IMG/VR virus record: IMGVR_UViG_3300020733_000050
Location: 1-29,509 of that record
Direction: 5' to 3' (one strand)
DNA: 29,509 nucleotides
From: a virus
A program made the translations under genes and the position numbers. Position 1 is the stretch's first letter, and each line of letters opens with the position of its first letter. Shown piece after piece: positions 4,894 through 27,615 of the stretch. Under the pieces are notes generated by a model, which searched no databases, had not been told where the DNA came from, and worked only from the letters and a program-made list of their open reading frames with translations.

Positions 4894-5961
4894 TTGGCTT
4901 ATAGTGGAACCACTGGTCAAACACAAATCAATGTTGACCAATTAATCTCATATGCATTTCGTGATGCTGGTAAAACGGCAGAGGAGATGACACCTGAGTT
5001 AATTGGTACAGCTAAGCAAGCTCTGTTTTACAACTTGCAAAATTTGTCTAATCGTGGCGTTAATCTGTGGTTATTGGAAAACCAATTGTACGGCGCTTTA
5101 ACAGCACAACAGCAATTAGTTTTACCAAAAACCACGATTGATGTGCGTGAAGCAAACTGGGTTTATATTATCAATTCTACAGCGGCAGAGTATTTGCCAG
5201 CGGATAATCCAGAATCGCCAGCGGTGTTTGCTCAAAACATTAATTTGGTATCCACTTCAACCGTTAGTGAAAACTATTTTGGACTGCAGTACCAAGGCTC
5301 TAATCCAGTGTTCTATGTTGGCTTTAATGCTTATGCACCCGCTGGTGAAACGGTAACATATAACTTTGCTTACGAAGTATCTAATGATGGGATTAATTGG
5401 ACAACTGTTCAGCAATTCCCATCGATTACCATGACTGATAAGCAGTGGCAGTACTATAACATCAGTACTACGCCTCCTTATCTGTATTACCGTTTGCGTG
5501 AGACTGTAGCTCCTACATTCTCCATTCGTCAGATTGTATTTTCAACTAGCCAACAAGTTATTCCATTAGCTCGCTTAAATCGTGATGACTACTGGAATTT
5601 ACCTAATAAGCAATTTCCATCAGTTCGTTCACTGCAATACTGGTTTGATCGTACGATTGAGCCTTCTATGTATTTGTGGCCAGTACCAAACAATGACTTC
5701 CAAATGTTCCAATTAGTTGTGGAAGTACAGATGCAAGATGTAGGTTCACTAACTAACCAAATTTATGTGCCAGATCGTTGGCTCAATTGTGTACAAAAGC
5801 AATTGTCTCATAGCTTGGCATTACAATTACCACAAGTGGATATGCCACGTATTCAGTATTTGGAGTTGCAAGCTGAAAAAGCATTCTTGCAAGCTAGTGA
5901 AGAAGATCGTGATAAGTCACCAATTTATTTCCAACCCAACGTGTCATACTACACCAGATGA
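4894..5961 (+). CDS. Putative head-tail connector/neck protein (355 aa)
   Basis: Translation from TTG 4894 is favoured because GGGAG (4883-4887) sits six bases upstream and the protein then starts MAYSGTTGQTQINVDQ; the first in-frame ATG is 38 codons later and would remove the conserved-looking N-terminal helices (DQLISYAFRDAGKTAEEMTP). The middle is beta-rich (SNDGINWTTVQQF, YLYYRLRE). The C-terminal part, with PDRWLNCVQKQLSHSLALQL and then a helix ending EEDRDKSPIYFQPNVSYY, resembles proteins found beside adaptor and nozzle genes in podovirus-like phages. I infer a connector or adaptor role from this resemblance and from neighbours. Its stop overlaps the GIY-YIG start as ATGA. Confidence 0.6.
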   Translation: MAYSGTTGQTQINVDQLISYAFRDAGKTAEEMTPELIGTAKQALFYNLQNLSNRGVNLWLLENQLYGALTAQQQLVLPKTTIDVREANWVYIINSTAAEYLPADNPESPAVFAQNINLVSTSTVSENYFGLQYQGSNPVFYVGFNAYAPAGETVTYNFAYEVSNDGINWTTVQQFPSITMTDKQWQYYNISTTPPYLYYRLRETVAPTFSIRQIVFSTSQQVIPLARLNRDDYWNLPNKQFPSVRSLQYWFDRTIEPSMYLWPVPNNDFQMFQLVVEVQMQDVGSLTNQIYVPDRWLNCVQKQLSHSLALQLPQVDMPRIQYLELQAEKAFLQASEEDRDKSPIYFQPNVSYYTR

Positions 5962-6497
5962 ACACTTCTTTGTATTGGATCCACCATAAAGACCATACTG
6001 ACATGTTTAGTCAGGGGTATATTGGTGTTTCTAAAAACATCGAAGCTAGGTGGTTTAGGCATAGCAAATATTCTGATAATCAACATCTTAAAGCAGCGAT
6101 TAAAAAATATGGTTGGGACAACCTTATTAAAGAAGTTGTTTTAATTGGGGAAGAAACATATTGTTACGATTTAGAAACAAAAATTAGACCAGCCAAACAA
6201 ATTGGGTGGAACATTGCTGAAGGTGGTGCAAAACCGCCTGTGTCACAATATCGCGGAGATAATTACGTTAGTCCTCTTAAAAATAAGTCAAGAAAAACTC
6301 CTTGGATGTTCGGACGTAAAGTATCCGATAAAGAAAAAAAACTTGCTTCTGAACGTAAAAAAGTAAAAGTTAAATACAACGGTATTGTTTATGACAGTTT
6401 TACCGCACTGGCCAATTTTTTAGGATTAAAACACGCAACCCTTGCAAATAGGATCTATAGAAATGCCAAAAAATATGGCTATGAGGTTTTAAAATGA
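5958..6497 (+). CDS. GIY-YIG homing endonuclease with C-terminal HTH
   Basis: A 179-aa free-standing endonuclease. The N-terminal nuclease domain shows LYWIHHKDH, then GYIG (the YIG half), the catalytic Arg region (EARWFRHSKY) and the Glu-bearing segment YDLETKIRP followed by GWNIAEGG. The middle has a basic DNA-binding stretch (SRKTPWMFGRKVSDKEKK, NUMOD3-like), and the end a helix-turn-helix of NUMOD1 type (YDSFTALANFLGLKHATLA). It would cut a specific DNA site and spread by gene conversion. It overlaps both neighbours by ATGA (5958-5961 and 6494-6497), so it was inserted without breaking either virion gene. It is more AT-rich than its neighbours, consistent with a mobile origin. Confidence 0.92.
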   Translation: MNTSLYWIHHKDHTDMFSQGYIGVSKNIEARWFRHSKYSDNQHLKAAIKKYGWDNLIKEVVLIGEETYCYDLETKIRPAKQIGWNIAEGGAKPPVSQYRGDNYVSPLKNKSRKTPWMFGRKVSDKEKKLASERKKVKVKYNGIVYDSFTALANFLGLKHATLANRIYRNAKKYGYEVLK

Positions 6498-7108
6498 GCG
6501 TAATCATGACCTACGATTCGCTGGTGCTCAATATCCAGCAATATATGGAGCGGGATGATGCTGACTTTATTGCTCAGATCCCTAACCTCATCGCTTTGGC
6601 GGAGTCATCGATTGCTGCCGAATTAAAAACCTATTTGCAGTTAATTGTTGTAGAAACCAGTTTAGCAACTAACCAAACTATTTTAAATAAACCAGCTCGT
6701 TGGCGTAAAACGGTTTCTATGAAAATTAATGGTGAGCCTATTTTGTTGCGTAGCCAAGATTATGTATCGCAGTATTTGGCTGAGTCTAGTAATGGTCAGC
6801 CCTTATATTATGCTGACTACGATTATAGCAACTGGAATTTTGCCCCAAAACCAGACGCCACTTATCCAGTGGAAATTATTTACTTTGCTGAAATTCAGCC
6901 ATTGGATGCTAATAACCAACAGAACTTGTGGACTCAAATTGCTCCACAAGCAATGCTTTATGGTGCTTTGTTACAAGCCCAAGGTTATTTAAAAGCTTTG
7001 GATAAGTTGCCAGTTTGGAAACAATATTACACTGATGCACTTAACGCACTCAAAAAAGAAGACAACTCTCGTCGTGTGGATCGCAACACTTCGGTTCAGG
7101 AACCTTAA
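6494..7108 (+). CDS. Putative SU10-type adaptor protein
   Basis: A 204-aa mainly helical protein beginning TYDSLVLNIQQYMERDD and continuing IAQIPNLIALAESSIAAELK. It then has a beta region (KTVSMKINGEPILLRSQDY, YPVEIIYFAEIQPLD), and a C-terminal helical segment (WTQIAPQAMLYGALLQAQGY). This helix / beta / helix order and the PNLIALAE..I..EL pattern fit the phage adaptor family that sits between portal and nozzle in short-tailed phages. The gene is flanked on the left by an intact GIY-YIG endonuclease and on the right by a GIY-YIG remnant. Start 6494 has GAGG at 6484-6487; ATG 6506 is an alternative. Name by family resemblance, not proof. Confidence 0.7.
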   Translation: MSVIMTYDSLVLNIQQYMERDDADFIAQIPNLIALAESSIAAELKTYLQLIVVETSLATNQTILNKPARWRKTVSMKINGEPILLRSQDYVSQYLAESSNGQPLYYADYDYSNWNFAPKPDATYPVEIIYFAEIQPLDANNQQNLWTQIAPQAMLYGALLQAQGYLKALDKLPVWKQYYTDALNALKKEDNSRRVDRNTSVQEP

Positions 7109-7109
7109 T

Positions 7110-7181
7110 ATGTCAGTTTGTGTATATTGGATTCGCCATAAAAGCCACAAAGGCTACACATTTAAAAGGTTAGAAAAATAA
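7110..7181 (+). pseudogene. Remnant of a GIY-YIG endonuclease (23 codons)
   Basis: A short frame from ATG 7110 to TAA 7179-7181 encodes VYWIRHKSHKGYTFKRLEK after four residues. Its start, YWIRHKSH, matches YWIHHKDH of the intact GIY-YIG gene at 5958, and the DNA also matches: most of the ~25 bases beginning at TATTGGAT and running through CCATAAA are shared. After this the conserved nuclease body is missing and the frame closes with a basic tail. Its stop overlaps the next ATG as TAATG. I read this as an internally deleted endonuclease that kept both junctions. It may still be translated and couple the two virion genes. Confidence 0.65.
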
Positions 7182-8464
7182 TGTCAACTCCCGTTTTTGT
7201 GAGCCCATTCACTGGGACTGTTGTTACCCCAACGGATGTATCCTATTATGCACTTTCTTTCAGTTCTCCCACACCACTCTATTGGCCATCTATTGTTAAT
7301 CAAGGAGTTGGTGAGATACCTGCTGCTCGTATTATCGATTGCGTTTGTACTAGTGCTAACGCCAATGCTGCTATCATTACTTTACCAGAAGCAGATCAAG
7401 GCACGGTTGGCGCGGATATTTTGTTCCGCAACCTTGGCTCAAATACTTTTACGATTAAAGACTATACGGGCGCAAACTCCGTTAGCGTACCAATGGGCAT
7501 TAGTAAGTATTTTTATCTTACTAATAATACAACTGCCGGTGGTGTTTGGAATAACGTCACATTTGCGGCTGGTACATCTTATGCAGATGCGGCTACTTTA
7601 GCAGGAGCTGGCTTAACTACTTCTAACGGTAAATTGGCCGTAACTGAAAACGTAGTCGATGTAACATCTTCTCCCAATATTACCGATGCAAGCCGTGGCG
7701 CTACTTTTAACTGGGGAGCTGGTGGTGGTACATTTACACTCCCTCCAGTACAAAATTTATCAGCTGGTTGGTGGATTGGTTTTAGAAATAGCGGATCTGG
7801 TTCATTAAACATCTATGCTACGACGCCAAATTTAATTAACGGCAATAGCGAAATTGTTGCTAATCCGGGCGATTCTGGTTTTATTTTTTACGATTCTATT
7901 AGTGGCGGGTTCATTACTGTTGGTTGGGTGGCCCCGTCAGCTGTTACTTTTAACTCAGCAACTTACGATGTTGATACCATAGTTGGCAATACGTTTAGTT
8001 TAGTATCTTATGCACCGATTATTCAGACTTATATTGCGCAATCTGGTACACGCACACAAAGTTTAGCAGTAACATTACCGGCCATTACCCAGATTTATAT
8101 TCTGGTTAATAACACAAACCAAACTGGCTATAACATTACTTTCCAATGTCAAGGAAGTAGTCAGACACCTTTGGTATTGTCCGCTGGTAATATTTCTACA
8201 GTACTAAGTGATGGTACTAATTTATATGTATTAACATCATCAGCAACCGGCTTATTTTATGCTGCTAATGGTTCAGCATCATTGCCAGCATATTCATTTA
8301 ACAATGATGTAACAAGTGGTATGTATTTAGTTGGTACAGGTGTTTTAGGTTTAACTGCAAATGGAACCGAAATTGTTAATATGGATGGTTCTAATCCATC
8401 GACTCCGGCAGTTAATGTGCTTGCTTCATTAAACGCCAAATCAATTGGCGGCGGGACATTCTAA
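7181..8464 (+). CDS. Beta-rich tail/head appendage protein
   Basis: A 427-aa protein, Ser/Thr/Asn/Gly-rich and beta-predicted throughout, with repeated short strands (LFRNLGSNTFTIKDYTG, IGFRNSGSGSLNIYATT, IYILVNNTNQTGYNITFQC) that suggest three related beta domains. The C-terminal 60 residues (AYSFNNDVTSGMYLVGTG) resemble a segment common in phage fibre and appendage proteins, just before where a chaperone or tip would follow. It lies between adaptor and nozzle genes and overlaps the GIY-YIG remnant stop by one base; AAGG at 7166-7169 is its weak ribosome binding site. A fibre-base or decoration role is inferred. No catalytic motif is seen. Confidence 0.65.
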   Translation: MSTPVFVSPFTGTVVTPTDVSYYALSFSSPTPLYWPSIVNQGVGEIPAARIIDCVCTSANANAAIITLPEADQGTVGADILFRNLGSNTFTIKDYTGANSVSVPMGISKYFYLTNNTTAGGVWNNVTFAAGTSYADAATLAGAGLTTSNGKLAVTENVVDVTSSPNITDASRGATFNWGAGGGTFTLPPVQNLSAGWWIGFRNSGSGSLNIYATTPNLINGNSEIVANPGDSGFIFYDSISGGFITVGWVAPSAVTFNSATYDVDTIVGNTFSLVSYAPIIQTYIAQSGTRTQSLAVTLPAITQIYILVNNTNQTGYNITFQCQGSSQTPLVLSAGNISTVLSDGTNLYVLTSSATGLFYAANGSASLPAYSFNNDVTSGMYLVGTGVLGLTANGTEIVNMDGSNPSTPAVNVLASLNAKSIGGGTF

Positions 8465-27198: not shown

Positions 27199-27615
27199 TT
27201 AGCATGTTTTTGTTTCATCATATGATAAATATTCAATTGCTGATTTAAGTGCTTGAATTGAATCATTAAATAATCCCAAGCCGTGGTTACATTTTTGACA
27301 CAAAAATCCTCTAATTTTTCCAGTTGTGTGGCAATGATCTAAATGTGCTTTATTTCCCATTTCTATACCAATTTTACAAATTGCACATTTACTGTTTTGT
27401 TTTTCTAATATTTTTAATACATCTTCTAATTTTAAACCAAATTTTTTAATATATTTAGTATTTCTACTTTTATCTATATTATTTTCTCGCCATTTTCTTT
27501 TTTGTATGGTATTACAGGATTTACATGTATATTGATATCCGTCCCCTTTTGTGTTATTGCTCTTACTAAACTCAGAGAATGGTTTTTTTGTATTGCAAAC
27601 ATTGCAATTTTTCAT
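27199..27615 (-). CDS. Recombination endonuclease VII / HNH-type nuclease
   Basis: A 138-aa protein with an N-terminal zinc finger (Cys4, Cys7, Cys31, Cys34) and a C-terminal endonuclease VII core: CAIC (77-80), AHLDHCHTTGKIRGFLCQKC (Asp93, His94, His96; Cys106, Cys109) and CNHGLGLFNDS. The T4 homologue resolves branched DNA before packaging; in other phages such proteins act as homing nucleases. The gene is far more AT-rich than its neighbours (about 13% GC in the sampled row 27421-27480), a sign of recent arrival, which favours a mobile nuclease. AGGAG seven bases before ATG 27615 supports the start. Confidence 0.9.
   Translation of the reverse strand: MKNCNVCNTKKPFSEFSKSNNTKGDGYQYTCKSCNTIQKRKWRENNIDKSRNTKYIKKFGLKLEDVLKILEKQNSKCAICKIGIEMGNKAHLDHCHTTGKIRGFLCQKCNHGLGLFNDSIQALKSAIEYLSYDETKTC

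Follow-up and report, generated by a model that had tools for sequence, protein, structure and literature searches.

What occupies the 72-base gap between an adaptor gene and the next structural gene of a freshwater phage, and how is it related to the intact endonuclease gene on the other side of the adaptor? The window, a 29,509-bp virus record in IMG/VR analysed here at its full length, carries a 23-codon frame in this gap. We found that the frame is an internally deleted GIY-YIG homing endonuclease gene (hereafter the scar). With high confidence, we interpret its 72 bp as what is left, after decay, of a free-standing gene of this family, which was inserted at the junction of the adaptor stop and the next start and then lost its interior. 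The coordinates of the locus are collected in Table 1. The relatives closest to the window belong to the same collection, and among annotated phages none matched the junction at the DNA level. The bacterial and archaeal genomes scanned contained no relatives of the adaptor gene, so no host was assigned. Elsewhere in the window, an ORF on the minus strand (27199-27615) resembles by eye an HNH/endonuclease VII-type nuclease (CNVCNTKKPFSEFSKSN...CKSCN...CQKCN) and is possibly another mobile endonuclease of the same phage.

Table 1. Features of the adaptor locus in the window
Feature	Coordinates	Strand	Evidence
Gene upstream of the adaptor, 355 aa	4894..5961	+	ORF
Intact free-standing GIY-YIG homing endonuclease gene, 179 aa, type A, upstream site	5958..6497	+	phrog_314, E=1.3e-15
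SU10-type adaptor protein gene, between both insertion sites	6494..7108	+	PF24175 SU10_adaptor, E=3.1e-20; phrog_2941, E=5.4e-31
152-bp block common to scar alleles of two diverged backbones	7076..7227	+	L003 versus L008/L010/L011
Tract differing from scar-less L004/L006	7090..7219	+	Base-by-base comparison
Shine-Dalgarno-like GTTCAGGAA, end of adaptor gene	7094..7102	+	Duplex energy with anti-SD, -4.3 kcal/mol
5' part of scar: first 11 codons of type-A GIY-YIG endonuclease (MSVCVYWIRHK)	7110..7142	+	26/33 bases (L137), 25/33 bases (L077); shuffle control
3' part of scar: last 12 codons and stop (SHKGYTFKRLEK, stop) of GIY-YIG endonuclease with I-HmuI/NUMOD-like C-terminus	7143..7181	+	Residue identity to L085, L081
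Replacement Shine-Dalgarno (AAAAGG) and TAATG overlap for next gene	7161..7183	+	Carried by endonuclease 3' end; duplex energy
Downstream structural gene, 427 aa, right flank of scar	7181..8464	+	ORF

The frame joins two ends of endonuclease genes

The frame starts with an ATG two bases past the adaptor stop (TAA-T-ATG), encodes MSVCVYWIRHKSHKGYTFKRLEK on the plus strand, and ends in a TAA that overlaps the ATG of the downstream gene (TAATG). Its 5' half resembles the beginning of intact genes related to the 5958 endonuclease (Table 1); when the ATG is left out, the best match is 23 of 30 bases, compared with a maximum of 18 among 20,000 base shuffles. The last 41 bases of the scar, TAATG included, match the 3' ends of full-length GIY-YIG genes lying in the same gap of relatives at 37/41 (L085) and 36/41 (L081) positions, the shuffle maximum for this half being 24 (20,000 shuffles), and all 12 C-terminal residues are identical to those of both genes. 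By similarity, the N-terminal region of these same-site genes is of GIY-YIG type; their LEM-3-like GIY-YIG matches are weak and below the cut-off, their NUMOD3 and NUMOD-like motifs are above it, and the L085 gene has a profile match to PF22083 (E=7.1e-9). Six independent IMG/VR contigs (L001, L002, L003, L008, L010 and L011) carry these 72 bases without a difference, and the scar is thus not an assembly artefact.

Both ends of the scar are homologous to members of the family, in order and in frame. Just 11 N-terminal codons are left and the GIY-YIG nuclease domain is absent, so the scar is a remnant and not a functional member. Nor is the scar a mere duplicate of the 5958 endonuclease, since its 3' end is of another C-terminal type. 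An earlier note on this DNA had recognized the ATG two bases past a stop and the TAATG junction, both of which are present at 7110-7181, and had equated YWIRHKSH with YWIHHKDH of the 5958 endonuclease. The match holds for YWIRHK and was drawn two residues too far, as SH begins the C-terminal piece. The same note regarded the second endonuclease as eroded to a coupling peptide. Eroded it is, although what is left consists of both gene ends fused and not of a start followed by an unrelated peptide, and the coupling is best described as putative.

Occupancy of the two insertion sites in relatives

The initial search gave 80 loci picked by adaptor similarity alone; six of these contained the identical scar, and the others with a readable junction were clean, with a spacing of a few bases. 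Later searches by the endonuclease, by the scar C-terminus and by a second adaptor brought the set to 145 distinct adaptor-junction haplotypes, in whose counts occupied sites are over-represented because some searches were aimed at endonucleases. The gap was clean in 134 haplotypes, held a full-length GIY-YIG gene in three, the window scar in six and another deletion in one (seven scars in all), and was undetermined in one whose contig ends before the next gene. The full-length genes lie exactly in the gap (L081/L119, L085/L280 and L281) and start with another GIY-YIG type, type B (MFYTYAHTKPDG); those of L081/L119 and L085/L280 end with GKRKSHKGYTFKRLEK and a stop that overlaps the next ATG. 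The other deletion, in L108, arose separately in a type-B gene: MFYTYVHTMPNGKIFYVGKGS is fused in frame to the C-terminal AELMAAGFQNPNVYKCINGKRKSHKGHTFNRVKNI, and the stop again overlaps the next ATG. In clean relatives the 427-aa gene is directly 3' of the adaptor gene. The next gene also starts a few bases past the adaptor stop in annotated phages whose adaptors are homologous (MW202545, OR260089 and MT375522), and the clean junction is therefore probably the ancestral state.

At the upstream site, the left flank is formed by the 4894..5961 gene, which is kept in nearly all relatives and whose end, TACACCAGATGA, overlaps the start of the 5958 endonuclease. The endonuclease itself is missing from most relatives. 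It is assigned to the GIY-YIG homing endonucleases by phrog_314, and its match to the Pfam GIY-YIG domain (E=0.0022) is under Pfam's cut-off. The site is occupied in 33 of the 145 haplotypes, by at least three endonuclease architectures: type A like the 5958 gene of the window, type B (L080, L085, L281 and L312), and a type-A nuclease with another, NUMOD-like C-terminus (L123 and L322). The window endonuclease differs from the L017 copy at only 7 of 536 bases (1.3%), compared with 93 of 615 bases in the adaptor gene and 91 in the preceding 600 bases (15% in both flanking genes), and the upstream gene thus looks mobile. Several further observations concern these endonucleases. Genes with different nuclease domains (window and L085) end with YGYEVLK, the codons of which contain the GAGG Shine-Dalgarno sequence of the adaptor gene. 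In the phage contig L128 (3001-4937), about 1.6 kb separates a pair of type-A GIY-YIG genes, with no adaptor match nearby. The closest annotated relative of the 5958 endonuclease (45%) is found in the marine Methylophilales phage MEP301 (MW452941.1; L423, 2477-3058), also between tail genes.

Both sites are occupied in L081, L085 and L281, the only three phages whose downstream site holds a full-length gene; the window combines the upstream gene with the scar; L008, L010 and L011 have the scar without the upstream gene; and 26 haplotypes have the upstream gene and a clean gap. The two sites are occupied independently, and the 5958 endonuclease is a separate insertion from the ancestor of the scar. 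The view in the earlier note of an adaptor gene flanked by an intact and a decayed endonuclease is thereby borne out, as is its expectation that some relatives would have a full-length GIY-YIG gene in the gap and others a clean junction; the contrary outcome that it named, relatives that never have an endonuclease there, is not what the haplotypes display. Of the two independent homing events that it proposed, the independence stands, and homing is the activity that we presume to lie behind both.

Formation, spread and persistence of the scar

We propose that a free-standing GIY-YIG gene was inserted, presumably by homing, between the adaptor stop and the first codon of the structural gene that follows, and that a single internal in-frame deletion then fused codon 11 to the last 12 codons. 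Some 150 codons, with the nuclease among them, would have been lost in this deletion, whose ends probably lay at a short AAA repeat; AAA is found on both sides of the joint. The ancestor would have joined a type-A nuclease and a NUMOD-like C-terminus in a single gene. L322 and L123 at the upstream site are natural genes that combine a type-A nuclease with an I-HmuI/NUMOD-like C-terminus (PF22083, the L123 match being just under the curated cut-off), and when 11 residues from the start of L322 are put together with 12 from its end, the resulting 23 residues are colinear with the scar. Given that these genes combine this nuclease with this C-terminus and match the scar colinearly, one deletion would suffice. 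They also argue against a fusion of two endonuclease genes, in which a type-A start and a type-B end would have been joined by recombination between tandem or successive occupants. This fusion is the strongest competitor, since none of the full-length genes located at the site starts as the scar does: all are type B, and a targeted scan of viral contigs for a full-length gene with the type-A start at the downstream site gave only scar copies among adaptor-bearing loci. In addition, both endonuclease types occur about 1.2 kb apart elsewhere in some phages (L147 and L150-L152). We consider such a fusion possible and rather unlikely, and favour the single deletion.

The scar has not stayed in one backbone. 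Between the window and L006, the adaptor genes differ at 18 of 600 bases and a stretch further into the next gene is identical. Base by base, the window differs from the near-isogenic scar-less L004 and L006 over a 130-bp tract (the scar with at most 19 bp to its left and 39 bp to its right), and the adjoining sequence is identical on both sides. A one-sided tract separates L008 from L013 and L014: the adaptor genes of L008 and L013 differ at 1 of 615 bases, after which come the scar, in L008 only, and 17 differences in the opening 60 bases of the next gene. These tracts show local recombination, in which short flanks were co-converted along with the insert, and they say nothing on which enzyme caused it. 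Furthermore, the adaptor genes of L003 and L008 differ at 88 of 615 bases (about 14%), whereas the 152-bp block with the scar has zero differences between L003 and L008, L010 or L011; the window has a single base change from L008 within the block, which falls in the second codon of the downstream gene. An identical block in two backbones so diverged means that the dead element has spread by recombination: a local exchange brought the scar into at least one backbone, either once it had decayed or as it did so. As a separate observation on the right flank, the downstream gene of scar alleles opens with 13 codons (7181-7219; MSTPVFVSPFTGT or MPTPVFVSPFTGT) that match no clean allele above 26 of 39 bases, and CCA at codon 2 is found only in occupied alleles, including L085 with its full-length gene.

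The translation signals suggest why both ends have persisted. In clean alleles, the Shine-Dalgarno sequence of the downstream gene lies in the last codons of the adaptor gene (CAGGAACC..., e.g., CAGGAACCCTAATAAATG; median duplex energy, -4.3). The endonuclease gene would have been inserted between this signal and the downstream ATG. The ATG of the scar, 7 bases past the Shine-Dalgarno-like sequence at the adaptor end, would now be served by the adaptor-encoded signal, and the last codons of the endonuclease would give the structural gene a new Shine-Dalgarno sequence (AAAAGG, -3.4 kcal/mol) and the TAATG overlap. The same type of arrangement is found in L085 (-3.2) and L281 (-3.3) and is weaker in L081 (-0.9). 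The replacement signal is weaker than the clean-allele median, and that of L108 is weaker still (-2.4). Upstream-site endonucleases likewise supply the adaptor gene with GAGG (median, -6.3). To judge from these motifs, translation may use the new signals. Because such genes split the Shine-Dalgarno sequence from the start codon and bring their own replacement, both ends would be hard to lose, which suggests that decay at such a site leaves scars rather than a clean excision. More tentatively, and doubtfully in our own estimate, the dead element may still be spreading across lineages by recombination, perhaps provoked in trans by the neighbouring live endonuclease, the scar being tolerated or favoured for its complete replacement translation start.

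It could also be argued that the peptide is kept as a functional leader that passes ribosomes from the adaptor gene to the downstream gene, the scar being domesticated and not drifting. Both known scars are in frame and keep the stop-start overlap, and the 72 bases are identical in six haplotypes from the two backbones. However, the identity reaches into both flanks over the whole 152 bp and therefore reflects a recent block transfer and not selection on the peptide; 134 haplotypes lack the peptide; and the scar copies have no variation from which selection could be measured. We regard a functional leader as improbable. Lastly, the frame has just 23 codons and alone gives no Pfam or PHROG match, but an unrelated short ORF with a chance likeness to endonucleases is ruled out, since neither half was equalled in any of 20,000 shuffles and the same gap in relatives holds a full-length gene or another deletion.

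Comparison with known systems

The locus presents the empty, the occupied and two differently decayed states of one homing endonuclease site, beside a second, apparently live site, and all states of the site occur within one environmental phage group. A decayed parasite is a known kind of thing, here in unusually clear intermediate states. For annotators, tiny coupled ORFs in phage structural operons should be considered as possible endonuclease scars before new small proteins are named.

Few relevant papers came up when the literature was searched for endonuclease remnants between phage genes. In lactococcal Skunavirus phages, 56 of 268 HNH endonuclease genes are described as incomplete; they sit at insertion locations that recur and seem to be remnants left by partial deletion (PMC12724721). 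Like the scar, these remnants vary between related phages; they are HNH genes, whereas the scar is of GIY-YIG type, and an exact fusion of gene ends between two structural genes, as in the scar, is not among the features given for them in the available portions of that report (PMC12724721). Phage T4 offers further parallels (PMC2988022). Its I-TevIII was inactivated by a large deletion, is functional in RB3, and is mobilised in trans by MobE, so that, as with the scar, a defunct element with a functional copy in a relative still spreads; unlike the scar, I-TevIII is an intron-encoded HNH enzyme, and trans homing, reported for I-TevIII, is a mere possibility for the scar (PMC2988022). The SegA-G genes of T4 resemble the present case in that they are free-standing, belong to the GIY-YIG family, lie between genes in related phages and show co-conversion of flanks, and for T4 mobE, which has the stop-start overlap UAAUGA, translational coupling has been proposed (PMC2988022). 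In contrast to the T4 seg genes, two sites here flank one small structural gene, and one of them is in decay. The scar is a new, well-resolved example of a known phenomenon, represented by I-TevIII and the Skunavirus remnants.
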